A stretch of DNA of 64,000 bases from Salidesulfovibrio onnuriiensis. GTDB lineage: Bacteria > Desulfobacterota > Desulfovibrionia > Desulfovibrionales > Desulfovibrionaceae. The notes beneath the pieces are model-generated. The model was given only the letters and a program-made list of their open reading frames with translations. It was not told the origin of the DNA and did no database searches. Position 1 is the stretch's first letter. Every line of letters begins with the position of its first letter. The stretch spans positions 1,409,001 through 1,473,000 of the forward strand of contig NZ_CP040751.1 in assembly GCF_008001235.1 (NCBI RefSeq). The letters are read 5' to 3'. Made by a program: the position numbers and the translations under genes. This document shows positions 15,357 through 33,317 of this stretch, piece after piece.

Positions 15357-16226
15357 TTACTGCACCCGGGACTCACTTTTTTCCTTGGCTCCGGGGCGGG
15401 AGGCCTTGATGAGTATCTCGGTGACGTACTTGGACGCGTTGCTGGTGGTCCAGTAGTCGGTGACGTACCGCTCGTAGACCTCGTCGCTCAGGGCGTAGCC
15501 CTTGTCCTTGGCCCAGCGGGCGATCTTCTTGTAGGTCTCGTGGATCTGCTCGTGCGGGCCGATGTGGTAGCAGGAGACCATCATCTGGCCGCCGAAGCGG
15601 AAGGTGTTTTCCTCGCGCAGGGGCATGAGGGTCTTCTGCAGGATCTTGATGGGCTGCTCTCGGTCCTCCAGCCTGTCCTCCATGGAGGAGAACTGGATGA
15701 TCACCGGGCCCGTGATTTCGTTTTCCACGGATTCCACGAAGTTGGTGAACTCGATGTTGATGATGGAATCCTTGATGTCATTCTCATAGGTCTGGTCCAG
15801 GAAAAGGAGCTTGGAGGTATCCACATACTTGACCGACACCTCGCGGATGTCGTTGTCGATGACGGTTTCCGCCTCCAGGATCAGGTCGTACCAGTCCTTG
15901 ACCGAAACGTATTTTCTGCGGATCAGTTCCTGCTCGGCTTCCAGTTCCTTGATCTTGGACAGGAACGAGCGCTGGATGGAACGGTACACGTTGGTGCCGT
16001 GGCCCTCGATGAATTCCTTCATCTCTTCGAGGGTGAAGCCCATCTGCTTGTAATATTTGATGACCGGAACCGCGAGCAGCGCGTCGTAGGTGTAGTAGCG
16101 GTAGTTGTTGTAGTCGTGCCGCTGTGACGGGATGAGATTGATTTTGTCGTAATACCGAAGGGCCTTCTTCGAGATATTACAGATCTTGCTCATATCTCCG
16201 ATGAAATAACGAGTCTTATTTTTCAT
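15357..16226 (-). CDS. MerR family regulator with GyrI-like effector domain
   Basis: A 289-residue activator/repressor with an N-terminal MerR winged helix (YFIGDMSKICNISKKALRYYDK, then the NNYRYYTYDAL wing), a long coiled-coil dimerisation helix (about 85-115), and a C-terminal GyrI-like ligand domain, the plan of BmrR-type regulators. Such domains often bind hydrophobic cations, so choline, a quaternary amine, is a reasonable inferred effector. The ATG at 16226 has AGGGAG seven bases upstream. MerR proteins act on promoters with 19-20 base spacers; exactly such promoters occur at 18016-18046 and 18529-18560, so this is the likely regulator of the cut locus. The effector remains inferred. 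Confidence 0.87.
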   Translation of the reverse strand: MKNKTRYFIGDMSKICNISKKALRYYDKINLIPSQRHDYNNYRYYTYDALLAVPVIKYYKQMGFTLEEMKEFIEGHGTNVYRSIQRSFLSKIKELEAEQELIRRKYVSVKDWYDLILEAETVIDNDIREVSVKYVDTSKLLFLDQTYENDIKDSIINIEFTNFVESVENEITGPVIIQFSSMEDRLEDREQPIKILQKTLMPLREENTFRFGGQMMVSCYHIGPHEQIHETYKKIARWAKDKGYALSDEVYERYVTDYWTTSNASKYVTEILIKASRPGAKEKSESRVQ

Positions 16227-16463
16227 GGCCACACTCCCTTGGGTCGTTCAGGCTTTCGGCCGCCCGCCCCACACGGGTTTTGGCCGAAGCACGATTTCAT
16301 TCGGTTGTGAATCGCACGCCTGAAGTCCGCCCGAATGCACCATGTTGTCTGAAAAAACAAGAAAGTGGCAGTCTTAGCCGTGGCGATCGATACCGATATC
16401 TCTTAAGCGCTATTGATGTATAGTTTTCTTTTCTCTTTCTACCCTATGCGATTGTCAAGAAAG

Positions 16464-16494
16464 AGGGGAGCGTCCCTTTTGGAACGGCTCCCCT
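16464..16494 (-). terminator. Probable terminator after transporter unit
   Basis: Stem AGGGGAGC / GCTCCCCT, 28 bases after the stop of the 88-residue gene, followed on the minus strand by CTCTTTCTT. A weak T-run makes this probable rather than certain. Confidence 0.6.
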
Positions 16495-16522
16495 TATATA
16501 TTCAGGATCCTAAACGGTCAAC

Positions 16523-16789
16523 CTAGCCCCTGATGTACTTGTTGATCGTGGCCGCGCCTTCTTCGTGGGCGCGGTAGTACACCCGCAGCTCGTTGCTGCC
16601 GTCCAGGTCGAAGCGGGTTTCCTCGATGAGGCCGTTTGCTTCGGCGGTCATGAGCGCTTCGATGATGGCCTGCTTCTTGAAGGCCTTGTAGTGTCCGTAC
16701 TGTCCCTTGAGGGCGTCGATGACGCAGTCTGCGCAGGCTTCTTCGACCTTGGTGAACAGCTTCAGGATAGCGTAGTTAAGAGGTACCAT
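16523..16789 (-). CDS. Small hypothetical protein of the cut locus
   Basis: An 88-residue soluble protein beginning MVPLNYAILKLF. The fold looks like a small winged helix: helices around EEACADCVIDALKGQYGHYKAFKKQAIIEALMTAEANGLIEE followed by two strands (RFDLDGSNELRVYYRA), but I cannot name the family. Its ATG directly abuts the stop of the DMT transporter gene (no gap), so both are made from the same message. By position it may regulate or assist the transporter. Confidence 0.7.
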   Translation of the reverse strand: MVPLNYAILKLFTKVEEACADCVIDALKGQYGHYKAFKKQAIIEALMTAEANGLIEETRFDLDGSNELRVYYRAHEEGAATINKYIRG

Positions 16790-17869
16790 TTATGCCTCCT
16801 GCTTTTTGAAGAGATCCATGGGGTTCATGGAGATGAAGAAGATACCGATGACCATGACCACGGCTGCGGCCCAGGCGATGGGAGCCATGTTCCAGCCTTC
16901 GCCGCCCATGGCGACGCCGAGGACGAGCCAGCAGACGAACGGTACCCAGAAGGAGAAGGTTCCGTTGCAGGCCATGCCCAGGGCGGCGCCGCACATGGCG
17001 TTGCCCTTGTACCAGTACATGAAGGTCAGGTACGCGGCCAGGCCGGCTGCCAGGAACCAGGGCATTGCCGCTGCGTCGGTGAAGGACTGGGCGACCATGG
17101 AAACGGTGTCGGCACCGGAGATCAGGCCGAACAGGGGCACGAGGATGAACAGGTTGGAAAGGCCGGAGGTCACCTGGCGGATGGTGATGCCGATTTCCGG
17201 GTCGATCATGGAGGTGCCGTAGCCGCAGACGCAGCCTTCGATACCCCAGGCAACCGCGGCCAGGAAGCCGAAGAGGATGCCCAGCATCGGGTTGGTGCCG
17301 CCTTCCACGTTCAGGGCGTCAGCGCCGATCATGAGGGAGGCGCCGAAGCAGATGGCGATACCGAACAGCATGCGGGAGTTCAGTTCCTGCTTGAACCAGA
17401 TGCGGCCCAGGATTGCGCCCACTGCCGGGCACAGGGCAGCGATGGGGCCGACAATGGCGCCCGCCAGCTGCAGGCCGACAACGTAGGAGGTGGATGCGAT
17501 CGGACCGCCGATCAGGGCCGCGGTGACCATGACCAGGCCGGGCTTGGTCTTGATGGAGCGGAAAAAGTCGCCGAGCCTGCCGCGGAAAGTTGCGAAGCCC
17601 AGGGCCCACACGGCGGAACAGGTGTCGGTGGTGGCTGCGCCGAGTGCGGCGAGCAGGTAGGTCACGGCAAAGGCGGACAGTCCGGATTCAGCGCCGTACC
17701 AGGTCAGCCAGATGCCTTCGGACATGCCCTGGGTCATGAAGGCGGTGTAGAAACCGTAGAGCAGGCCGGACATCAGGGCAATGAGAATGCCCTTGGTCTT
17801 AAAGCTGGCAACCAGCTTCTGTTTTGCAGCGACGGCTGCCGGGTTCACTGCAATGGATGCGTTCCCCAT
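16790..17869 (-). CDS. DMT superfamily (EamA-like) transporter
   Basis: A 359-residue inner-membrane protein with about ten hydrophobic helices in two repeats, as in the drug/metabolite transporter superfamily (GILIALMSGLLYGFYTAFM near the start, GILFGFLAAVAWGIEG at the start of the second half). The ATG at 17869 has GAGGAGACG upstream. It is divergent from the choline-utilisation operon and is read from a promoter (18016-18046) nearly identical to the operon's own MerR-type promoter. By that link it is a candidate for choline uptake or for export of trimethylamine or another pathway product. DMT proteins carry many substrates, so this is inference. Confidence 0.82.
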   Translation of the reverse strand: MGNASIAVNPAAVAAKQKLVASFKTKGILIALMSGLLYGFYTAFMTQGMSEGIWLTWYGAESGLSAFAVTYLLAALGAATTDTCSAVWALGFATFRGRLGDFFRSIKTKPGLVMVTAALIGGPIASTSYVVGLQLAGAIVGPIAALCPAVGAILGRIWFKQELNSRMLFGIAICFGASLMIGADALNVEGGTNPMLGILFGFLAAVAWGIEGCVCGYGTSMIDPEIGITIRQVTSGLSNLFILVPLFGLISGADTVSMVAQSFTDAAAMPWFLAAGLAAYLTFMYWYKGNAMCGAALGMACNGTFSFWVPFVCWLVLGVAMGGEGWNMAPIAWAAAVVMVIGIFFISMNPMDLFKKQEA

Positions 17870-18560: not shown

Positions 18561-18656
18561 GAAAATCGGATGTGAACAAGGAACTGTTCCTGGGTTCGCT
18601 CCGGAAGGCAGTAACGCTTTTGAACTGAAGCATCAGCTCAATGAATGGGAGATCAC

Positions 18657-19271
18657 ATGAGGTATCAAGGCGAAGAGGCTCTGGGCCTTATCGAAACTCT
18701 TGGAATGGTTCCGGCCATCGGTGGCGCGGACGCAATGCTCAAAACCGCTGACGTGGAACTCGTTTCCTACGAAAACGTCGGATCCACTCTGGTCTGCGTC
18801 ATGGTCAAGGGCGACGTGGCCGCTGTCGAGGCATCCGTTTCCGCAGGCGCCAGCGCAGCTTCCGAAGTGGGCAAGCTGACCGCAAAGAACGTCATGCCCC
18901 GCCCCATCCGCGGCGTCGGCGACATCGTTTGCGTGCACGGCGTTGAAGAGGGCCCGGCCAACGAATCCGGCCAGCGTCCCCGCGCAATGGGTCTCATCGA
19001 AACCTTCGGCATCGTTTTTGTTCTCGAAGCCGCAGACGCCATGATGAAGACCGCCGACGTGGAACTCATCGGCTACGAAAACGTGGCATCCGGTTATATT
19101 TCCGTGCTGGTCCAGGGCGATGTGGCCGCATGTAAGGCCGCCGTCGAAGCCGGTGTGAAGGCCGTGGAGGCAATGCACGCGGAAGTCTACAGCTCCCTGG
19201 TCATTCCGACTCCGCACCCGGACCTGGAAAAGATCACCAAGATCTACGCCATCGAAAACCTGCTGCCCTAG
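18657..19271 (+). CDS. BMC-T shell protein (tandem BMC domains)
   Basis: A 204-residue trimeric shell protein with two BMC domains: residues 6-85 (ALGLIETLGMVPAIGGADAMLKTADV) and about 108-190 (AMGLIETFGIVFVLEAADAMMKTADV). Three copies form a pseudohexamer tile in the microcompartment facet, with a pore for substrate or cofactors. The ATG at 18657 has GGGAG upstream; an in-frame ATG at 18645 has none. It is the first gene of the choline operon, directly after the MerR-type promoter. Unlike the other two BMC-T proteins here, it lacks the Cys-Pro/Ser-Gly pore motif of PduT. Confidence 0.93.
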   Translation: MRYQGEEALGLIETLGMVPAIGGADAMLKTADVELVSYENVGSTLVCVMVKGDVAAVEASVSAGASAASEVGKLTAKNVMPRPIRGVGDIVCVHGVEEGPANESGQRPRAMGLIETFGIVFVLEAADAMMKTADVELIGYENVASGYISVLVQGDVAACKAAVEAGVKAVEAMHAEVYSSLVIPTPHPDLEKITKIYAIENLLP

Positions 19272-19344: not shown

Positions 19345-20847
19345 ATGATTATCGACAACGATCTGCTCTCCATCCAGCAAGCCAGGATCCTGGCGGAAAA
19401 CGCATTCGAGGCCCAGAAGACGCTGGCCGCGTTTCCCCAGGAAAAACTGGACGCGATTGTCGAGCGCGTGGCCGAGGCCGTGGAGGAGCAAGCCCAGGCC
19501 CTTGCGGTCATGTCCGTTGACGAGACCGACAGCGGCATTTGGCAGGACAAGTGTGTCAAGAACCGGTTCGTCTGCGAGCACGTCCGAAACCACCTGCGCG
19601 GCATGCGCTGTGTGGGCGTTATCGGCGAGGATTCGCAGAAACGGCTCATGGACATCGGCGTTCCCGTCGGGGTCATTGCCGCGGCCAGTCCCGTGACCAG
19701 TCCGGTTTCCACCACAGTCTACAAGACCCTGATAGCCATCAAATCAGGAAACGCCATCGTCTTTTCCCCCCATCCCCGGGCCATGAAGAGCATCTGCCGC
19801 GTTCTGGACATCATGATCGATGCCGCCCAGTCCGCGGGCCTGCCCGAGGGATGCCTCTCCTACCTGGGCACCGTGACCAAAAGCGGTACCCGGGAACTCA
19901 TGAGCCATCCGGCGGTTTCGCTGGTCATGGTTTCCGGCGTCCCCGGCATGCTCCGGGTTGCGCAGGGCACGGGAAAACCCGTCATCTACGGGGGAACAGG
20001 CAACGGTCCGGCCTTTATCGAGCGCTCTGCGGACATCAAGCAGGCCGTCAAGGACATCATCAGCAGCAAGACCTTCGACAACGGCATGGCCCCTTCGGCC
20101 GAGCAGTCCATTGTCGTGGATTCCTGCATTGCCGACGATGTGGTTCGGGTCCTCAAGGACAACGGCGCCTATTTCATGTCCGAGTCCGAGTCGCTCAAGC
20201 TCGCCGACCTCTTCTTCAGCCCGGACGGGCTGCGCAAGAAGGGCACGGTGGGCGTGCCCGCGGCCACCCTGGCCAAAAGGGCCGGATTCGAGGTTCCCGG
20301 AAGCGTCAAGGTGCTGGTCGCCCGGCGCAAGTACGTTTCCGAAACCGACCCCTACTCCCGGGAACTCCTTTCCCCGGTGCTCGCCCTCTACGTGGAGGCC
20401 GACTGGATGCACGCCTGCGAAAAGTGCATCGAGCTGCTGCTGCACGAAAGGAACTCCCACACCCTGGTCATACATTCCGGCGACGAAGAGGTTATCCGCC
20501 AGTTCGCCCTCAAAAAGCCCGTGGGCAGGTTGCTGGTCAATACGCCGGCCACCTTCGGCGGCATGGGGGCCACCACCAACCTCTTCCCGTCCATGACATT
20601 GGGCAGCGGCTCCGCAGGCCGCGGCATCACCTCGGACAATGTTTCCCCCAAGAATCTCATCTACGTGAGGAAGGTGGGCTACGGCGTCCGGAAAATGGAT
20701 GGCGCGCAGTGTGCGGCAGTGAACGAGGAAACGGCCTGCCACGAAGGCAGCGCAAAGATGGAAGATAACGATTCGAGAACGTTGCAGGCTCTGCAGCAGA
20801 TCTTGAAGGAAGCGATCGACGTCATGAAAGATCCTGCGGATCGATAA
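19345..20847 (+). CDS. Aldehyde dehydrogenase homologue lacking the catalytic cysteine
   Basis: A 500-residue member of the CoA-acylating aldehyde dehydrogenase family, collinear with the 479-residue copy at 25099. The family's active-site segment FDNGxxCASEQ reads FDNGMAPSAEQ here: proline (P250) stands where the other copy has C247. Without the nucleophile it should not oxidise aldehyde, so a structural, regulatory or CutC-assisting role is more likely. The nucleotide-binding glycine region is also altered (IYGGTGN versus GVGAGN). A C-terminal extension forms a short amphipathic helix (LQALQQILKEAIDVM), like peptides that direct cargo into microcompartments. Its TAA is at 20845-20847, just before cutC. 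Confidence 0.88.
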   Translation: MIIDNDLLSIQQARILAENAFEAQKTLAAFPQEKLDAIVERVAEAVEEQAQALAVMSVDETDSGIWQDKCVKNRFVCEHVRNHLRGMRCVGVIGEDSQKRLMDIGVPVGVIAAASPVTSPVSTTVYKTLIAIKSGNAIVFSPHPRAMKSICRVLDIMIDAAQSAGLPEGCLSYLGTVTKSGTRELMSHPAVSLVMVSGVPGMLRVAQGTGKPVIYGGTGNGPAFIERSADIKQAVKDIISSKTFDNGMAPSAEQSIVVDSCIADDVVRVLKDNGAYFMSESESLKLADLFFSPDGLRKKGTVGVPAATLAKRAGFEVPGSVKVLVARRKYVSETDPYSRELLSPVLALYVEADWMHACEKCIELLLHERNSHTLVIHSGDEEVIRQFALKKPVGRLLVNTPATFGGMGATTNLFPSMTLGSGSAGRGITSDNVSPKNLIYVRKVGYGVRKMDGAQCAAVNEETACHEGSAKMEDNDSRTLQALQQILKEAIDVMKDPADR

Positions 20848-23472: not shown

Positions 23473-24402
23473 GTGATCGAGAGAAAAGCGCACATATTCA
23501 ATATCCAGAAATACAACATGTATGACGGACCGGGTGTGAGAACGCTGGTGTTTTTCAAGGGGTGCCCCCTGCGTTGCGAATGGTGCTCGAATCCCGAGGG
23601 CCAGCTCCGGCGCTTCCAGGTGCTGTTCAAGCAGAACCAATGTGTTAATTGCGGTGCCTGCGTCGAGGTCTGTCCGGTGGACGTCCATCGGATGAACCCG
23701 GCAGGTCAACACATTGTTGCGCAGGACGTGGAATGCGTCGGCTGTCGGAAATGCGAAAAGGCCTGTCCCGAATCCGCTTTGGCCGTGGTCGGGGAAGTAC
23801 AGTCCATCTCTGAGATTCTGGAGGTCATCGAGGAGGACAGGCCTTTTTACGAAACTTCCGGCGGCGGCGTGACCCTGGGCGGCGGCGAAGTGCTGGCCCA
23901 GCCTGATGCGGCGGCAAGCCTGCTCCAGGCCTGCAGGCAGCGGGGCATCAACACCGCCATCGAGACCTGCGGCTACGCCCGGCCCGAGACCATCGAGAAG
24001 GTGGCCGACTACGTGGATCTCTTCCTGTACGACGTCAAGCACATGAATTCGGACAGGCATCATGAGATCACGGGCGTGCGCAATGAAATGATCCTGGAAA
24101 ACCTCAAGTGGCTGCTGGAGAACCGCTACAACGTGAAGATCCGCATGCCGCTCCTCAAGGGCGTCAACGACGGCGAGACGGAGATCCTCCAGCTGGTCGA
24201 ATTCCTGAAGCCCTATCAGGACCTCAAGAATTTCAAGGGAGTGGATCTGCTCCCGTATCACAAGATGGGCGTGAACAAGTACGCGCAGCTGGGTTGGGAA
24301 TATCCCATCGAGGGAGATCCCAAGCTGAGCGATGCCGACCTCGAGCGCATCGAGCAGGGCATCAAGAAATACAATTTTCCGGTTTCCGTGGTCCGGCACT
24401 AG
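23473..24402 (+). CDS. cutD: CutC activating enzyme (radical SAM)
   Basis: A 309-residue radical-SAM activase that places the glycyl radical on CutC using S-adenosylmethionine and a reduced 4Fe-4S cluster. The cluster motif CxxxCxxC is C31, C35, C38 (CPLRCEWC). A ferredoxin-like insert follows with two more 4Fe-4S motifs: C57/C60/C63/C67 and C88/C91/C94/C98. The SAM-binding GGGE is near residue 136. Translation starts at GTG 23473. It sits 54 bases after cutC, the usual pairing for glycyl radical enzymes. Confidence 0.96.
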   Translation: MIERKAHIFNIQKYNMYDGPGVRTLVFFKGCPLRCEWCSNPEGQLRRFQVLFKQNQCVNCGACVEVCPVDVHRMNPAGQHIVAQDVECVGCRKCEKACPESALAVVGEVQSISEILEVIEEDRPFYETSGGGVTLGGGEVLAQPDAAASLLQACRQRGINTAIETCGYARPETIEKVADYVDLFLYDVKHMNSDRHHEITGVRNEMILENLKWLLENRYNVKIRMPLLKGVNDGETEILQLVEFLKPYQDLKNFKGVDLLPYHKMGVNKYAQLGWEYPIEGDPKLSDADLERIEQGIKKYNFPVSVVRH

Positions 24403-24449: not shown

Positions 24450-25094
24450 ATGGCAGCAATTGGATTCATAGAGACAAAGGGCCTGGTGGCCGCCATCGAG
24501 GCGGCGGACGCCATGCTCAAGGCGGCGGATGTCCGCCTGCTGGAACGAACTCAGGTGGGCAGCGGCCTGGTGACCATCACCGTGGCCGGGGAAGTTTCCG
24601 CCGTGAAGGCCTCGGTGGACGCCGGCGTCTGCGCCATCAAGCGCATCGAGGGCGCATGCCTGGTTTCCCAGCATGTCATCCCCCGTCCGGACGCGGAGGT
24701 TTCCGCCATCATCGCCACGGAACCCGGCCAGGCTGAAGCCGCACCGGCGGAAGAGGCCCCGGTGGTTGAAGAGCCGGCCATGGCGGAGCCCGAAGTCGTC
24801 GAGCCCGAGACCGTTGCCGAGCCTGAAGCGCCGGTGGTCGAGGAAGCTCCGGTCGAGGACGTTGCGGCGGATGAAGAGCCTGCGGAAGAAGCTCCGGTGG
24901 AAGCCGAGCCCGTGAAGGCGGCTCCGGCCGAGCGGCACAATATTTCGCAGTTAAAGAAAATGAAGGTCGGCAGATTGCGTCAGATTGCACGGTCCCTGAG
25001 CGGTCTTCCCATGACCCGCGACGAGATCAAATCGGCCAAGAAGAAAGACCTGATTGAAGTTATTGTTAATGCATACAGGCAGATAGAGGAGTAG
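24450..25094 (+). CDS. BMC-H shell protein with linker and Rho_N/SAP-like tail
   Basis: A 214-residue composite shell protein. Residues 1-88 are a canonical BMC-H domain (GFIETKGLVAAIEAADAMLKAADV). Residues about 92-160 form an acidic, Pro/Ala/Glu/Val-rich linker. The last 50 residues are a small helical domain (ISQLKKMKVGRLRQIARSL...KKKDLIEVIVNAYR) that resembles the Rho N-terminal or SAP fold, a nucleic-acid-binding type. EutK of the ethanolamine compartment is a known precedent for a BMC-H with a nucleic-acid-binding-like tail. The tail could bind RNA/DNA, cargo or the cytoplasmic face. It lies between cutD and the active aldehyde dehydrogenase, with GGAAGG before the start. Confidence 0.88.
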   Translation: MAAIGFIETKGLVAAIEAADAMLKAADVRLLERTQVGSGLVTITVAGEVSAVKASVDAGVCAIKRIEGACLVSQHVIPRPDAEVSAIIATEPGQAEAAPAEEAPVVEEPAMAEPEVVEPETVAEPEAPVVEEAPVEDVAADEEPAEEAPVEAEPVKAAPAERHNISQLKKMKVGRLRQIARSLSGLPMTRDEIKSAKKKDLIEVIVNAYRQIEE

Positions 25095-25098
25095 TTCA

Positions 25099-26538
25099 AT
25101 GGTAGACAAGGATTTATTGTCCATGCAGGAAGCCCGTTCCCTGGTTCGCGCCGCAAAAAAGGCCCAGGCCGATTTTGCCCAGTACGACCAGGAACACGTG
25201 GACGCCATCGTCAAGGCCATCGCCGAGGAAGCTGTTGCCCATGCCGAGTGCCTGGCTGAGCTGGCTGTGGAAGAGACCGGTTTCGGCAAGGTCCAGGACA
25301 AGAAGGTCAAGAACATTCTGGCCAGCGAAAAGCTCATCGAGGCCACCAAGGACATGAAGACCATTGGTGTGCTCCATGAGGACAAGGCCCACAAGGTGGT
25401 GGAAATCGCCGTGCCCATGGGTGTCATTGCAGGGATCATTCCCTCCACCAACCCCACGTCCACGACCATCTACAAGTCCATCATTTCCCTGAAGTCCGGC
25501 AACGCCATCGTCTTCACCCCGCACCCGAGCGCCAAGAAGTGCATCGGCAAGACCGTGGAAATGATCCGCGGCGTGCTCAAGAAGTGCGGCGTGTGCGAAG
25601 ACATGGTCTCCGTCATGAGCGTGCCCACCATCCAGGGCAGCGGCGAACTCATGAAGGTGGCCGACCTGATCCTGGCCACCGGCGGCCCGGGCATGGTCAA
25701 GGCCGCTTACAGCTCCGGCACCCCGGCCCTGGGCGTGGGCGCAGGCAACGTGCCCGCCTACATTGAGCGCAGCGCCGACATCGAGGACGCCATCACCAAG
25801 ATCATGGCTTCCAAGACCTTTGACAACGGCACTGTCTGCGCTTCCGAGCAGTCCATCATCACGGACGCCTGTATCGCCGACAAGGTCAAGGCCACCCTCA
25901 TGGCGCAGGGCGGCTACTTCCTGGAAGGCGAAAAGCTGGACAAGGTCAAGGCCGTCATGGAACGCGGCAACGGTTCCATGAACCCGGACATTGTGGGACG
26001 CAGCGCCGAGTACATCGCCAAGCTGGCCGGCATCGAGGTCCCGCACGGCACCCGCCTGCTGGTCTCCACCGAAAAGGGCGTCGGTCCCAAGTACCCCTTC
26101 TCCAAGGAAAAGCTGACCCAGCTTCTGGCCTTCTACGTGGTCGAGGGCTGGCATGAAGCCTGCGAGCTGTGCCACGCACTGCTGGAAAACGGCGGCGTGG
26201 GCCACTCCCTGTCCATCCACTCCCACAATGAAGACGTCATCCGCGAGTTCGGCATGAAGAAGCCGGTCTCCAGGATGCTGGTGAACACCCCGTCCACCCA
26301 CGGCGCGGTGGGCCTCTCCACTTCGCTGTTTCCGTCCCTCACCCTGGGCTGCGGCGCAGTGGGCGGCAGCGCCACTTCCGACAACGTCACTCCGCTGAAC
26401 CTCATGAACGTGCGTCGTATCGCCTACGATCTGGGCACCACGACCTGCCAGAAGGCTCCGGAAAAGACGGAAGGAACCAATCTCGACGTGCAGGCCATCA
26501 CCGCCATGATCGTCGAGCAACTGAAACAGATGGCTTAA
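25099..26538 (+). CDS. CoA-acylating acetaldehyde dehydrogenase
   Basis: A 479-residue enzyme that oxidises acetaldehyde released by CutC to acetyl-CoA with NAD+ and CoA inside the compartment. The catalytic cysteine is C247 in FDNGTVCASEQ. The cofactor-binding glycine region (GVGAGN) and IIPSTNPTSTTIYK are intact. The C-terminus ends with a linker and amphipathic helix (LDVQAITAMIVEQLKQMA), a likely encapsulation peptide. GAGGAG lies before the ATG, four bases after the stop of the BMC-H gene. This is the active partner of the cysteine-less homologue at 19345. Confidence 0.94.
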   Translation: MVDKDLLSMQEARSLVRAAKKAQADFAQYDQEHVDAIVKAIAEEAVAHAECLAELAVEETGFGKVQDKKVKNILASEKLIEATKDMKTIGVLHEDKAHKVVEIAVPMGVIAGIIPSTNPTSTTIYKSIISLKSGNAIVFTPHPSAKKCIGKTVEMIRGVLKKCGVCEDMVSVMSVPTIQGSGELMKVADLILATGGPGMVKAAYSSGTPALGVGAGNVPAYIERSADIEDAITKIMASKTFDNGTVCASEQSIITDACIADKVKATLMAQGGYFLEGEKLDKVKAVMERGNGSMNPDIVGRSAEYIAKLAGIEVPHGTRLLVSTEKGVGPKYPFSKEKLTQLLAFYVVEGWHEACELCHALLENGGVGHSLSIHSHNEDVIREFGMKKPVSRMLVNTPSTHGAVGLSTSLFPSLTLGCGAVGGSATSDNVTPLNLMNVRRIAYDLGTTTCQKAPEKTEGTNLDVQAITAMIVEQLKQMA

Positions 26539-26599: not shown

Positions 26600-26881
26600 A
26601 TGTCCCTGAACGCACTCGGAATGATCGAGACCAAAGGCCTGGTCGGCGCTGTCGAAGCAGCTGACGCAATGGTGAAGGCAGCTAACGTGACCCTGGTGGG
26701 CAAGTCCCAGGTGGGCGGCGGTCTGGTGACCGTCATGGTTCGCGGCGATGTGGGCGCAGTCAAGGCTGCCGTCGACGCCGGCGCTGCAGCCGCCAAGAAC
26801 GTGGGCGAACTGATCAGTGTTCACGTGATTCCCCGCCCGCACGGCGAAGTGGAAACCATCCTGCCTTCCGCACAGGGTTAA
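26600..26881 (+). CDS. BMC-H hexameric shell protein
   Basis: A 93-residue single-domain BMC protein, the main facet tile of the shell. It starts [27 protein letters not shown] and has the pore-loop and helix pattern of PduA-like proteins, ending [15 protein letters not shown] strong ribosome site (AAAGGAGA) precedes it, fitting high expression. It is almost identical to the 89-residue copy at 30364. A stable hairpin (26944-26974) follows in the message. Confidence 0.95.
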
Positions 26882-27019: not shown

Positions 27020-27694
27020 ATGAACGATAAAGCCATCAACGATATTTTGGGTGGGGTCATCCAGACGGTCCTGGACCAGCTGAAGGACACGACCCCGGCG
27101 GCAGCACCGGCCTGTGCCGGCTCCGACGACACCATCCCGGTGGAGCTGTCCGCGCGCCACGTGCATCTGAGCGAAGCCGACGCCATGGAACTCTTCGGCC
27201 ATCCGTTGACCCCGGTTCGCGACCTTTCCCAGCCGGGCCAGTTCCTGGCCGAGGAGCGCGTTCGCCTCATCGGTCCCAAGGGAGTCATGGACAACGTGGC
27301 CGTGCTCGGTCCGTCCCGCAGCAGCTCCCAGGTTGAGATTTCCAAGACCGACGCCCGCATCCTGGGCGTGAACGCCCCGGTGCGCCAGTCCGGCGACGTC
27401 GAAGGCACCCCGGGCATTGTCCTGGCCTCCCAGACCGGCATCGTGGGCATGGAAGAGGGCGTCATCGTGGCCGCCCGCCACATCCACATGTCCCCGGAAG
27501 ACGCCAGGCGCCTCTGTGTTTCCGACAAGGAAAAGGTCTGCGTGCGCCTGGATTCCGAGCGCCCCGTGATTCTGGAGGACGTGCTGGTTCGCGTGAACCC
27601 CGAGTTCAAGCTGGCCATGCACATCGACCCGGACGAAGGCAACGGCTCCGGCTGGACCTCCAAGGTCACCGGCCGCATCGTGCCCAAGCACTAG
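27020..27694 (+). CDS. pduL: PduL-type phosphate acyltransferase
   Basis: A 224-residue zinc enzyme that converts acetyl-CoA and phosphate to acetyl-phosphate and CoA, recycling CoA within the compartment. Metal-binding histidines appear in two repeats, ARHVHLS (H47, H49) and ARHIHMS (H154, H156), with another candidate in AMHIDPDEGN. The first 22 residues (AINDILGGVIQTVLDQLKD) form an amphipathic helix typical of PduL encapsulation peptides. The ribosome site is weak (CGAAGCAAGC), possibly lowering its output relative to shell genes. Confidence 0.94.
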   Translation: MNDKAINDILGGVIQTVLDQLKDTTPAAAPACAGSDDTIPVELSARHVHLSEADAMELFGHPLTPVRDLSQPGQFLAEERVRLIGPKGVMDNVAVLGPSRSSSQVEISKTDARILGVNAPVRQSGDVEGTPGIVLASQTGIVGMEEGVIVAARHIHMSPEDARRLCVSDKEKVCVRLDSERPVILEDVLVRVNPEFKLAMHIDPDEGNGSGWTSKVTGRIVPKH

Positions 27695-28536: not shown

Positions 28537-29136
28537 ATGGACATGAACGAACTGGCCCGCACCATAGCCGAGGAAGTCCTGAGACAGCTCAGGCGCGACC
28601 GGGCCGAGCAGCACGCCGGGGAATGCGCCCTGGTGCTGGCCGAGCGCGACTGCCTCCTGGCCGACAAGGTTCATGCCTGCCTGGGTGATGAATACGAACT
28701 TTTCTTTTTCGGCGAAGACATGCACGACCGGACGCCCTGCCGATACATTCTGCCCACACTCTCTTGTGCCGCGCTGGCTGAACTCGCCACCGGCGGTGCG
28801 TCCGGATCTTTTTCCTTCGCTGTCCTGAAACTGCTGCTGCAGGGCCGGGAAGTGGAGGTGCTCGAGTTTGAATACAAAGCCTACGCCGAGACGGCGCCGG
28901 GCCCGCTTTACAGCATGTACGAGTCCCATGCTGCAACGGTTGCGGGCTTCGGGCTCAAGGCTTTCCGGCCCAAGCAGCCGGATACGGTCAGGTTCCGGGA
29001 CACCCTGGTGACCGAGGCCGTGGTTCGGGAGGCGGCGGGAGCGTCCGTGCTCATGGTGCCCGCCAAGGCCCTGGTCACGCCCCAGGCATACGAGGTGTCC
29101 AAGGACCTGAATCTCACCATTCAGAAATGTTTATGA
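28537..29136 (+). CDS. Microcompartment-associated protein (TIGR02536-like)
   Basis: A 199-residue protein found, as far as I recall, only in microcompartment loci and sometimes labelled ethanolamine utilisation protein (TIGR02536). The N-terminal helix (MNELARTIAEEVLRQLRRD) is amphipathic, like encapsulation peptides. The middle looks like a flavoprotein-type alpha/beta domain, and the end (MVPAKALVTPQAYEVSKDLNLTI) resembles the short motif near the N-terminus of EutT/EutQ-type proteins. AGGAG precedes the ATG. Catalytic activity is not known; a cargo or assembly role is inferred. Confidence 0.7.
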   Translation: MDMNELARTIAEEVLRQLRRDRAEQHAGECALVLAERDCLLADKVHACLGDEYELFFFGEDMHDRTPCRYILPTLSCAALAELATGGASGSFSFAVLKLLLQGREVEVLEFEYKAYAETAPGPLYSMYESHAATVAGFGLKAFRPKQPDTVRFRDTLVTEAVVREAAGASVLMVPAKALVTPQAYEVSKDLNLTIQKCL

Positions 29137-29148
29137 GGATGTTGGCGT

Positions 29149-29415
29149 ATGATGATCGGTAAAGTGATCGGCAATGTCTGGGCCACGCGCAAGGAAGATT
29201 CCCTGTGCGGGCTGAAGCTCATGGTGGTGCAGCGGCTGGACGCAGCCAACGGCGGCGCCAAGGAGAGCTTCGTGGCAGTGGATTGCGTGAGCGCGGGTAT
29301 CGGCGAGGAAGTGCTCGTGGCCACGGGCAGCTCCGCCCGCAAGGCGCTCAGGAATCAGGAAGCCCCGGTTGATGCGGCCATCGTCGGCATCATCGACGGC
29401 TGCGAAGAAGGCTAG
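29149..29415 (+). CDS. BMC-P pentameric vertex protein (EutN/CcmL family)
   Basis: An 88-residue protein that caps the twelve vertices of the shell as a pentamer. It begins MMIGKVIGNVWATRKEDSLCGLKLMVVQ, the standard EutN/CcmL opening, and has FVAVDCVSAGIGEEVLVATGSSAR and the closing AAIVGIIDG. It is the only BMC-P gene in the locus, enough for a closed shell. Either of the two first ATGs could be used. Confidence 0.95.
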   Translation: MMIGKVIGNVWATRKEDSLCGLKLMVVQRLDAANGGAKESFVAVDCVSAGIGEEVLVATGSSARKALRNQEAPVDAAIVGIIDGCEEG

Positions 29416-29984: not shown

Positions 29985-30332
29985 ATGAAAAAGAAACTCG
30001 TGGAAGTGGGCAATCTGGACCCCTACATCTGCCTGGACAGCAAGAAGTTCTACATGGACGACAACATGATCCTGACGCCTGGCGCCAGGGACGAGCTGAG
30101 CCGCAGGGGCATCGCCATCGTCTGCGGAGCCAAGCCGGAAGCGGCCTATGCCTCCAAGGAAGAACACGCGCACGACGCGGCCTGCACCCCCGCGGAACAC
30201 GGCTGCAACGGCGTGGAAGACCTGCTTGTCGCCGTGGCCGCCATGGTCAAGACCGAGTTCGGCGTCGAAGACCCCGAAGTGCTCAAGGCCATCAGCTGCG
30301 AAGCCGTGAAAACCATCAAGGAAAATATTTAG
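29985..30332 (+). CDS. Small microcompartment-locus protein, EutT N-terminus-like
   Basis: A 115-residue protein of unknown function. The segment MILTPGARDELSRRGIAIV resembles the N-terminal motif of EutT/EutQ proteins, but no adenosyltransferase domain follows. A Cys/His-containing linker (HAHDAACTPAEHGC) could bind metal. The C-terminal helix (VEDLLVAVAAMVKTEF, VLKAISCEAVKTIKENI) is amphipathic and may contact shell or cargo. GAGGTAAG precedes the ATG, and the gene directly follows a PduT-like shell gene. Confidence 0.62.
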   Translation: MKKKLVEVGNLDPYICLDSKKFYMDDNMILTPGARDELSRRGIAIVCGAKPEAAYASKEEHAHDAACTPAEHGCNGVEDLLVAVAAMVKTEFGVEDPEVLKAISCEAVKTIKENI

Positions 30333-30755: not shown

Positions 30756-30845
30756 CGCCAGGCAGGGAGCCAAATTTCCGCCGGTGAAACAACGTCTGGC
30801 AAAGTGATCGAAGACAACACGTTTTAATATAGATTGGAGAATCCG

Positions 30846-31955
30846 GTGACACAGTTCTACGGAAAAACAAAAATCTGCTACGGCGAAGATTCCCTGGAAA
30901 CCCTGGAGCACATCCCGGCAAAGCAGGCCTTCATCGTGACCGACCCGTTCATGGTCAAGGTCGGTTTCGCGGACCGCGTCAAGAGCCATCTGGACCGCGC
31001 GGGCATCCCCCACCGCACCTTCGACGGCGTCGAGCCCGACCCGTCCCTGGAGACCGTGACCACGGGCACCAAGCTGTTCCTGCAGGACCAGGCCGACCTG
31101 ATCATCGCCCTGGGCGGCGGTTCGCCCATCGACGCCGCAAAGGCCATTTCCTTCTTTGCGCACAAGGCCTGCGAGGACAAGCCCAAGCCCACCCTGGTGG
31201 CCATCCCGACCACCAGCGGCACCGGCTCCGAAGTGACCGCCATCTCCGTGGTCACGGACAAGGTCAACGAGGTCAAGATTCCGCTCAACGACGAGCTGCT
31301 GATTCCGGACATGGCCATCCTGGACCCGCGCTTTACCCGTTCGCTGCCGCCCCACGTGACGGCCGCCACGGGCATGGACGTGCTCACCCACGCCATCGAG
31401 GCTTACACCTCGCGCCAGTCCAACGCCTTCACCTCCATCTACGCCAAGTACGCCATCCGCTACGTGTTCCAGTACCTGTACCGCGCATACAGGAACGGCG
31501 ACGACATGGAAGCCAGGAAGCGCATGCTGCTCGGCTCCTGCATGGCGGGCATGGCCTTCAACAACAGCGGCCTGGGCATCACCCACAGCGTGGCCCACAG
31601 CCTGGGCGGCATCTTCCACGTGCCCCACGGCCTGGCCAATGCCGTGGTCCTGCCGCACGCCATCCGGTTCAACAGCTTTGACGCCGGCATCCGCTATCAG
31701 GAGATCGCCCAGATGCTGCACATGCCTGCGGAAACCGTGGAAGAGGGCACCGAGAGCCTGATCTCGGCCGTGTGCGAACTGAACGATTCCATGGGCATCC
31801 CCACCCAGATCCGGGGACTGAAGATCGAGGAAACAACCTTCCGCGAGCACATGGACGTCATGGCCAAGAATGTTTTGGAAGACATCTGCACCGAAGGCAA
31901 CCCGAGACGGCCGTCCCGCGGCGACGTCAAGTTGCTTCTGGAGCAGGCCTGGTAA
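30846..31955 (+). CDS. Iron-containing alcohol dehydrogenase
   Basis: A 369-residue type III alcohol dehydrogenase that reduces acetaldehyde to ethanol and so regenerates NAD+ for the aldehyde dehydrogenase inside the compartment. NAD-binding GGGSPIDAAK is near residue 90, and metal ligands lie in MDVLTHAIEAY, THSVAHSLGG and HVPHGLANA. The start is GTG 30846 with GGAGA six bases upstream; upstream in-frame codons lack a site. The C-terminus ends VKLLLEQAW. Confidence 0.94.
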   Translation: MTQFYGKTKICYGEDSLETLEHIPAKQAFIVTDPFMVKVGFADRVKSHLDRAGIPHRTFDGVEPDPSLETVTTGTKLFLQDQADLIIALGGGSPIDAAKAISFFAHKACEDKPKPTLVAIPTTSGTGSEVTAISVVTDKVNEVKIPLNDELLIPDMAILDPRFTRSLPPHVTAATGMDVLTHAIEAYTSRQSNAFTSIYAKYAIRYVFQYLYRAYRNGDDMEARKRMLLGSCMAGMAFNNSGLGITHSVAHSLGGIFHVPHGLANAVVLPHAIRFNSFDAGIRYQEIAQMLHMPAETVEEGTESLISAVCELNDSMGIPTQIRGLKIEETTFREHMDVMAKNVLEDICTEGNPRRPSRGDVKLLLEQAW

Positions 31956-31991: not shown

Positions 31992-33317
31992 ATGCAAGAG
32001 CAGATTGTAGCGAAGATAAGGGAAGCCGGCGTCGTGGGCGCCGGCGGCGCAGGGCTGCCCACCCATGTGAAGGCGGGCGCCACCGTGGAGACGGTGCTGG
32101 TCAACGGCGCCTCCTGCGAGCCCCTGCTCATGAGCGACCCGTATCTCCTGGAAGCGGAGATCGACATGGTTGTTCGCGGGCTGGAATACATCATGGACTG
32201 TGTGGGCGCCAAGCGCGGCGTCATCTGCCTCAAGGGCAAGCACGGGAAGGCCATGGAAGTGGTGCGCGAGCGAGTGTCCAGGGACGGCTCCGGCCGTCTG
32301 GAGGCCTTTGAGCTCGGCGACTTCTACCCGGCGGGCGACGAGCAGGTGCTCGTGCGCGAGGTGCTGGGCAAGACCATTCCCGAGCGCGGCCTGCCCCTGC
32401 AGGTTGGCGCGGTGGTCAGCAACGTGGAGTCGCTCCTGAACGTGGCCCTGGCCATGGACGGCAAGCCCGTGACCCATCGCTACGTCACCGTCACCGGCGA
32501 GGTGAAGACCCCCATGGTGGTCAAGGTGCCCGTGGGCACCCTGGTCCGGGACGTGCTCGCCTTCGCGGGCGGTCCCACCATTGCCGACTACAAGGTCGTG
32601 GACGGCGGTCCCATGATGGGCCGCGTGCTGCCGGATACCGAGCAGTCCGTGACCAAGACCACCTCCGGCCTGATCGTGCTGCCGCCCGAACACAACGTGG
32701 TGGCCCCCAAGATCATGGACCCCGAGCGCATCCGCCGCATCACCAACACCATCTGCTGTCAGTGTTCGCGGTGTACGGACCTGTGCCCGCGCAACCTGCT
32801 GGGCCATTCCCTGCACCCCCACAAGCTCATGCGCGTGCTCGAGTCCCAGATCATGGAGACCGAGGTGGCCAAGGAGGCCCTGCTCTGTTCCGAATGCGGC
32901 CTGTGCGAGAAGTTCGCCTGTCCCATGGGCGTGTCTCCCCGCGAGGTCAACGCCCAGATCAAGAAGGTGCTCATGGCTAACCGCGTCGCCTGGGAAGCCG
33001 GGGACAAGGAATACCGGGCCAACCCGTTCCGGGAAAGCCGCGCCGTGCCCACCAAGCGCCTCATCCAGCGCCTGGACCTGGTCAGGTACGACGGCCATCC
33101 GGCCTTTGCGGGCGAAATGAGCTCCTCCCTGGTGCGCATCCCGCTGCACCAGCACATCGGCGCTCCGTCCCAATGTGTCGTTTCCGTGGGCGACCACGTG
33201 AGCAAGGGCGACCTGCTCGGCGAAGTGCCCGAGGGCGCCATGGCCGCCCGGGTCCACTCCAGCATCGACGGCGTGGTCGAGTCCATTGCCGACGGCAAAG
33301 TAACCATCAAGGCTTAA
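31992..33317 (+). CDS. PduS/RnfC-like Fe-S flavoprotein
   Basis: A 441-residue redox protein with an N-terminal RnfC-type NADH/FMN domain (IREAGVVGAGGAGLPTHVKA), an SLBB domain, two 4Fe-4S motifs (ICCQCSRCTDLCPR and CSECGLCEKFACP) and a C-terminal biotinyl-like hammerhead (VSVGDHVSKGDLLGEVPEGA). In propanediol compartments PduS reduces cobalamin and pairs with PduT in the shell. This locus is B12-independent, so here it more likely passes electrons to or from the interior for NAD+ recycling or CutD reduction (inference). It lies directly before a PduT-like gene. Confidence 0.9.
   Translation: MQEQIVAKIREAGVVGAGGAGLPTHVKAGATVETVLVNGASCEPLLMSDPYLLEAEIDMVVRGLEYIMDCVGAKRGVICLKGKHGKAMEVVRERVSRDGSGRLEAFELGDFYPAGDEQVLVREVLGKTIPERGLPLQVGAVVSNVESLLNVALAMDGKPVTHRYVTVTGEVKTPMVVKVPVGTLVRDVLAFAGGPTIADYKVVDGGPMMGRVLPDTEQSVTKTTSGLIVLPPEHNVVAPKIMDPERIRRITNTICCQCSRCTDLCPRNLLGHSLHPHKLMRVLESQIMETEVAKEALLCSECGLCEKFACPMGVSPREVNAQIKKVLMANRVAWEAGDKEYRANPFRESRAVPTKRLIQRLDLVRYDGHPAFAGEMSSSLVRIPLHQHIGAPSQCVVSVGDHVSKGDLLGEVPEGAMAARVHSSIDGVVESIADGKVTIKA

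Follow-up and report, generated by a model that had tools for sequence, protein, structure and literature searches.

The aldehyde dehydrogenase (AldDH) homologue CutB of Salidesulfovibrio onnuriiensis is almost certainly a pseudoenzyme of GRM1 choline-degrading microcompartments, and we see about an even chance that it acts as an encapsulated, non-catalytic adaptor of the choline trimethylamine-lyase CutC. Both the loss of the cysteine and a proposed scaffold role were already in print in 2014. In the parts of Axen 2014 (PMC4207490) used here, every GRM1 locus with two AldDHs has one in which Ser or Pro stands in for the Cys, a scaffold or regulator role is proposed for this Cys-less AldDH, and the Cys-less sequences are left out of the AldDH tree. 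The parts of Sutter 2021 (PMC8217296) used here mark the second AldDH copy of GRM1A and GRM1B as putatively inactive. This inactive AldDH corresponds to CutB in both gene and locus type, and in those parts of both papers the account concerns the cysteine only. Relative to them we add the losses of an Asn and a Gly, a sister relation to the AldDH of GRM2 loci, dN/dS values, a shift of constraint and the retention of CutB without CutF. With these additions the suggestion of 2014 becomes a more precise adaptor hypothesis that can be tested.

Functional papers and reviews still treat CutB as a working acetaldehyde dehydrogenase. A fitness study of D. alaskensis listed Dde_3283, which adjoins cutC (Dde_3282) judged by locus number, among acetaldehyde-processing genes (PMC4215793), and a 2026 review gives CutB/F as two CoA-acylating oxidoreductases (PMC13258700). 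Should CutB prove to be a CutC adaptor, it would contribute to the way in which gut and sediment bacteria package the trimethylamine-forming enzyme, and this packaging could be perturbed with the CutC active site untouched.

The choline locus

The window (the whole stretch of 64,000 nucleotides that was analysed) contains a complete GRM1-type choline utilisation locus at about 18.6-34.7 kb, with these genes:

18645..19271, + strand: two-domain BMC shell protein, immediately 5′ of cutB
19345..20847, + strand: cutB, Cys-less acylating-AldDH homologue, 500 aa
20848..23418, + strand: cutC, choline trimethylamine-lyase, short GRM1 form, 856 aa, likely start GTG 20878
23473..24402, + strand: cutD, radical SAM enzyme activating CutC
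24450..25094, + strand: BMC shell protein
25099..26538, + strand: cutF, second AldDH, catalytic Cys present, above the NCBIfam cut-off
26600..26881, + strand: BMC shell protein
27020..27694, + strand: phosphotransacylase (PTAC, PF06130)
29149..29415, + strand: EutN/CcmL vertex protein
30834..31955, + strand: iron-containing alcohol dehydrogenase (CutO-like)
31992..33317, + strand: PduS/RnfC-like protein

The features that mark the locus as GRM1 are a short CutC, CutD, two-domain BMC shell proteins, PduS-, EutP- and EutJ-like genes, and two AldDHs, one with the Cys and the other with Ser or Pro in its place. The preliminary description had cutB abutting cutC, and the cutC ORF does have its first in-frame ATG (20848) straight after the cutB stop. 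The true start of cutC is likelier to be GTG 20878, because GGAGG precedes it and homologues begin there with MDL. Two other ORFs of the locus (28537-29136, 199 aa; 29985-30332, 115 aa) had no Pfam match; similar sequences occur in the choline locus of L160.

Active-site losses in CutB

The following segments of cutB are referred to below:

19699..19701, + strand: Ser119 codon, where the oxyanion-hole Asn is expected (Asn role: PMC4762007)
19939..19971, + strand: residues 199-209, cofactor-side helix, the most relaxed stretch, with Val199 replacing an invariant Gly
20074..20106, + strand: FDNGMAPSAEQ active-site segment, residues 244-254, Pro250 codon at 20092-20094
20401..20448, + strand: residues 353-368, predicted helix and candidate partner-binding site
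20767..20823, + strand: residues 475-493, C-terminal amphipathic helix, encapsulation-peptide-like, behind a low-confidence linker (459-475)

A proline had been described in place of the nucleophilic cysteine, and the alignment bears this out. Pro250, encoded by CCT, aligns to Cys246 of E. coli AdhE, and the active-site segment of CutF (25099-26538) is FDNGTVCASEQ, with the Cys kept. We rejected a sequencing error at Pro250, as two changes separate CCT from a Cys codon and Cys is absent from every relative in the clade. The proposed alignment of this position across CutBs gave Cys in 0/86 and 0/94 sequences. In the CutB clade (n = 86) the residue is Ser in 53, Pro in 27, Ala in 3 and Thr in 3. 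In a second set of 94 CutBs, which came from whole-genome searches that made no use of peptide patterns and so is free of motif bias, it is Ser in 46, Pro in 44 and Ala in 4. All relatives outside the CutB clade (55/55) have Cys. On the tree, position 250 changed at least seven times inside CutB, so the position drifts, and the Ser of the earliest CutB branch (L074) suggests that Cys to Ser came first. The nucleophile would thus probably have passed from Cys to Ser, and then repeatedly from Ser to Pro, Ala or Thr.

CutB has also lost the oxyanion Asn and part of the nicotinamide site. At position 119, where the Asn with the oxyanion-hole role (Tuck 2016, PMC4762007) is invariant in Cys-type relatives, Ser is found in 82/94 CutBs, including the one in the window, and Asn in only 6/94. 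Position 199, an invariant Gly in Cys-type relatives, is Val in 88/94. Equivalents of His372 (catalytic base) and Glu340 (CoA site) are retained, as aligned to AdhE, and several cofactor-side residues are left (K133, N136, H143, N220, E340 and H372). CutB scored 541.7 bits against the NCBIfam model of acetylating acetaldehyde dehydrogenase (TIGR02518), below the curated cut-off of 620.1, and CutF scored 648.9 bits, above it. Active EutE-type AldDHs (TIGR02518; PDB 3k9d, 5j78) have the fold in common with CutB (Z 54-56) and share the His372 and Glu340 equivalents, whereas CutB has lost their nucleophile, oxyanion Asn and cofactor-site Gly and falls below the family cut-off. With these three residues gone, and the loss ancestral to the clade, the pseudoenzyme status that had been proposed is strongly supported. 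Cys89 of CutB is nearly invariant (85/86 CutBs), and relatives have Thr there.

The gene is full length, as had been stated: its ORF encodes 500 residues, and AlphaFold2 gives a confident model of the acylating-AldDH type (mean pLDDT 88). The best PDB match of the model is Listeria 3k9d (Z 56, 1.8 Å over 452 residues), and in the model and the PDB matches the ALDH fold spans the full length. CutB and CutF have the same fold and 44% identity, and they are the only close relatives of CutB in the source genome; the next match has 25% identity over about 160 residues. The C-terminal amphipathic helix that had been proposed is also supported by the prediction of a helix at 475-493 after the low-confidence linker. 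The hydrophobic moment at residues 478-495 (0.635) ranks among the highest 1-2% within the protein, and the predicted C-terminus resembles an encapsulation peptide in being a terminal amphipathic helix on a flexible linker.

Origin of CutB and selection on its sequence

We built a maximum-likelihood tree of 74 rows with the active-site columns removed. CutB is monophyletic (100/100), and the window CutB groups with other CutBs that lie beside CutC. The single AldDH of GRM2 loci, from Proteus, Photobacterium and Enterobacterales, has the Cys and is also monophyletic (100/100). The two clades are sisters (100/99) inside the EutE-type enzymes. CutF had been called the second copy; that the two are recent duplicates is rejected, as the tree that joins CutB and CutF of proteobacterial GRM1 loci in one clade has a p-AU of 0.0002. 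The stem branches of CutB (0.66) and GRM2 (0.47) are long, and some long-branch attraction is possible. Gene order lends the grouping independent support despite the long stems, because GRM2 loci read BMC-AldDH-EutN-CutO-CutC and the earliest-branching CutB locus (L074) reads BMC-CutB-CutO-CutC. Three other loci (L040, L053, L063) have a gap between CutB and CutC similar in size to that of L074. The sequences thus strongly support tracing CutB to kin of the single active AldDH of GRM2, not to its neighbour CutF. The AldDH of Klebsiella pneumoniae GRM2 (there called CutF; PMC6971018) has about 50% identity to CutB, the same place in the gene order and a similar C-terminal helix, but it keeps the Cys, Asn and Gly and is the sole AldDH of its locus. 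Both locus types occur together in Photobacterium G162, which has a GRM1 locus with CutB and a CutC of 847 aa and a GRM2 locus with a Cys-type AldDH and a CutC of 1137 aa.

Retention of cutB by selection, as the preliminary description had it, is supported by NG86 dN/dS values of 0.04-0.25 in ten close CutB pairs, a range like that of CutF (0.12-0.15 in three of the same pairs). In the two pairs that include the window, the values are 0.14-0.21 for CutB and 0.09-0.26 for CutF.

We compared weighted site variability between CutB and Cys-type relatives in 11-residue windows. The strongest CutB-specific gain of constraint is at residues 353-363 (DWMHACEKCIE), and the clearest loss is at 199-209, beside the nicotinamide site. 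Both shifts were seen separately in proteobacterial and clostridial CutBs, and neither was present in a control comparison of CutF with EutE/GRM2. DWMHACEK was among the peptide patterns that recruited the first loci, and 79/80 of those carry it. We rejected ascertainment bias as the source of the 353-363 result, which held in the 94 CutBs, 16 of which are without the exact peptide. In that set 353-363 ranked first (0/3000 permutations as low) and 199-209 was the most relaxed (p 0.001), with p-values that are indicative, as the permutations shuffle sites without modelling phylogeny. The helix at 353-368 may plausibly be a partner interface, and the constraint at 353-363 gives the scaffold idea of 2014 a concrete stretch of residues.

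CutC as candidate partner, and other readings

A CutC-binding or scaffold role, as had been proposed, is the favoured one, given the adjacency of the genes, the retention of cutB without cutF and the kinship with GRM2. Immediately 3′ of cutB, we found cutC in 77/82 loci. The GRM2 AldDH needs the presence of CutC to co-migrate with shells and moves CutC into larger complexes, and its contact with CutC requires the pseudo-GRE N-terminal extension of CutC (Kalnins 2020, PMC6971018). The window CutC, of the GRM1 form, has no such extension, so a CutB-CutC contact cannot be identical to that of GRM2. The GRM2 extension itself gave similarly weak scores to GRM1 CutC and to its own core.

The compact choline locus of Halodesulfovibrio spirochaetisodalis (L028, 8893-16900) has shell genes, cutB, cutC and cutD; CutF, alcohol dehydrogenase and PTAC are missing from it. 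Its genome (one draft) also yielded no PTAC and no CutF-like AldDH, the best remaining match having 33% identity. The Halodesulfovibrio congener sampled in L025 has both CutF and PTAC. We consider CutC a better candidate for the partner than CutF because of the adjacency, the precedent of the GRM2 AldDH and the keeping of cutB with cutC in H. spirochaetisodalis. One genome, G478, has a short CutC with shell genes and without CutB; CutB is therefore not universally needed, and we dropped the strict rule that a short CutC always comes with CutB. The G478 loci L158 and L161 have two CutC homologues, one beside shell genes without CutB or AldDH and the other reported with an in-frame TAG.

CutB has kept its fold, its place next to cutC and an encapsulation-like tail, and CutF, an AldDH of separate ancestry, would supply the catalysis in GRM1. 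In the adaptor reading, the folded body of CutB would hold CutC, plausibly through the conserved helix at 353-368, and the C-terminal helix may anchor CutB at the shell or in core aggregates. A fuller version, which we put forward only tentatively, is that CutB was the AldDH of an ancestral choline compartment, was displaced by CutF and is now a dedicated CutC adaptor that docks through 353-368. If so, choline compartments would have evolved two dead-enzyme connectors, the pseudo-lyase domain of GRM2 and the pseudo-dehydrogenase of GRM1. Like CutB, the pseudo-GRE extension of GRM2 CutC is a dead enzyme domain in a choline compartment, and co-migration of the AldDH with shells needs it. It differs in being a degenerate lyase fragment fused to CutC, whereas CutB is a separate dead dehydrogenase.

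CutB could instead form mixed oligomers with active CutF, as a regulatory or structural subunit comparable to the dead subunits of other enzyme families. The shared fold and operon, and the identity between the two proteins, are consistent with this, as is the presence of a Cys-type relative in nearly all CutB genomes tested. AldDHs of the family oligomerize; GRM2 CutF, for one, elutes at tetramer size and above (Kalnins 2020, PMC6971018). However, CutB persists in the one genome where no CutF-like AldDH was found, and cutB adjoins cutC rather than cutF, and we regard a mixed oligomer as rather unlikely.

The cofactor-side residues that CutB still has, and the ADP bound in its close structural relative 5j7i, would suit a ligand sensor or a buffer of CoA, adenine nucleotide or acetaldehyde within the compartment. 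This is less likely again, since the nicotinamide side is where CutB is most relaxed and the strongest constraint lies elsewhere. Sequestering of aldehyde, another role that had been suggested, is disfavoured: covalent capture of an aldehyde is impossible with Pro or Ala in place of the nucleophile, and most CutBs no longer have the oxyanion Asn.

That CutB is an enzyme with another nucleophile (such as Ser250 or the CutB-specific Cys89) or another reaction is highly improbable. The retained His372 and Glu340 equivalents and the near invariance of Cys89, which is Thr elsewhere, are in keeping with it, but the residue at 250 drifts between Ser, Pro, Ala and Thr, most CutBs lack the oxyanion Asn, and a related AldDH lost its activity through the equivalent C269A change (Tuck 2016, PMC4762007). 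A decaying relic without function, which the lost catalytic residues might suggest, we reject as scarcely credible in view of the dN/dS values, the full length of all CutBs, their clade-specific conserved helix and the choline induction (about 2^7-fold) of the AldDH gene adjoining the choline lyase in C. ljungdahlii (PMC12016505).

In GRM1 loci of Photobacterium and a relative (L050, at 15673-17677; L150; L151), the CutF ORF is about 667-676 aa long. These long CutFs have an extra C-terminal region, and a further CutF copy of normal length lies in the same region.
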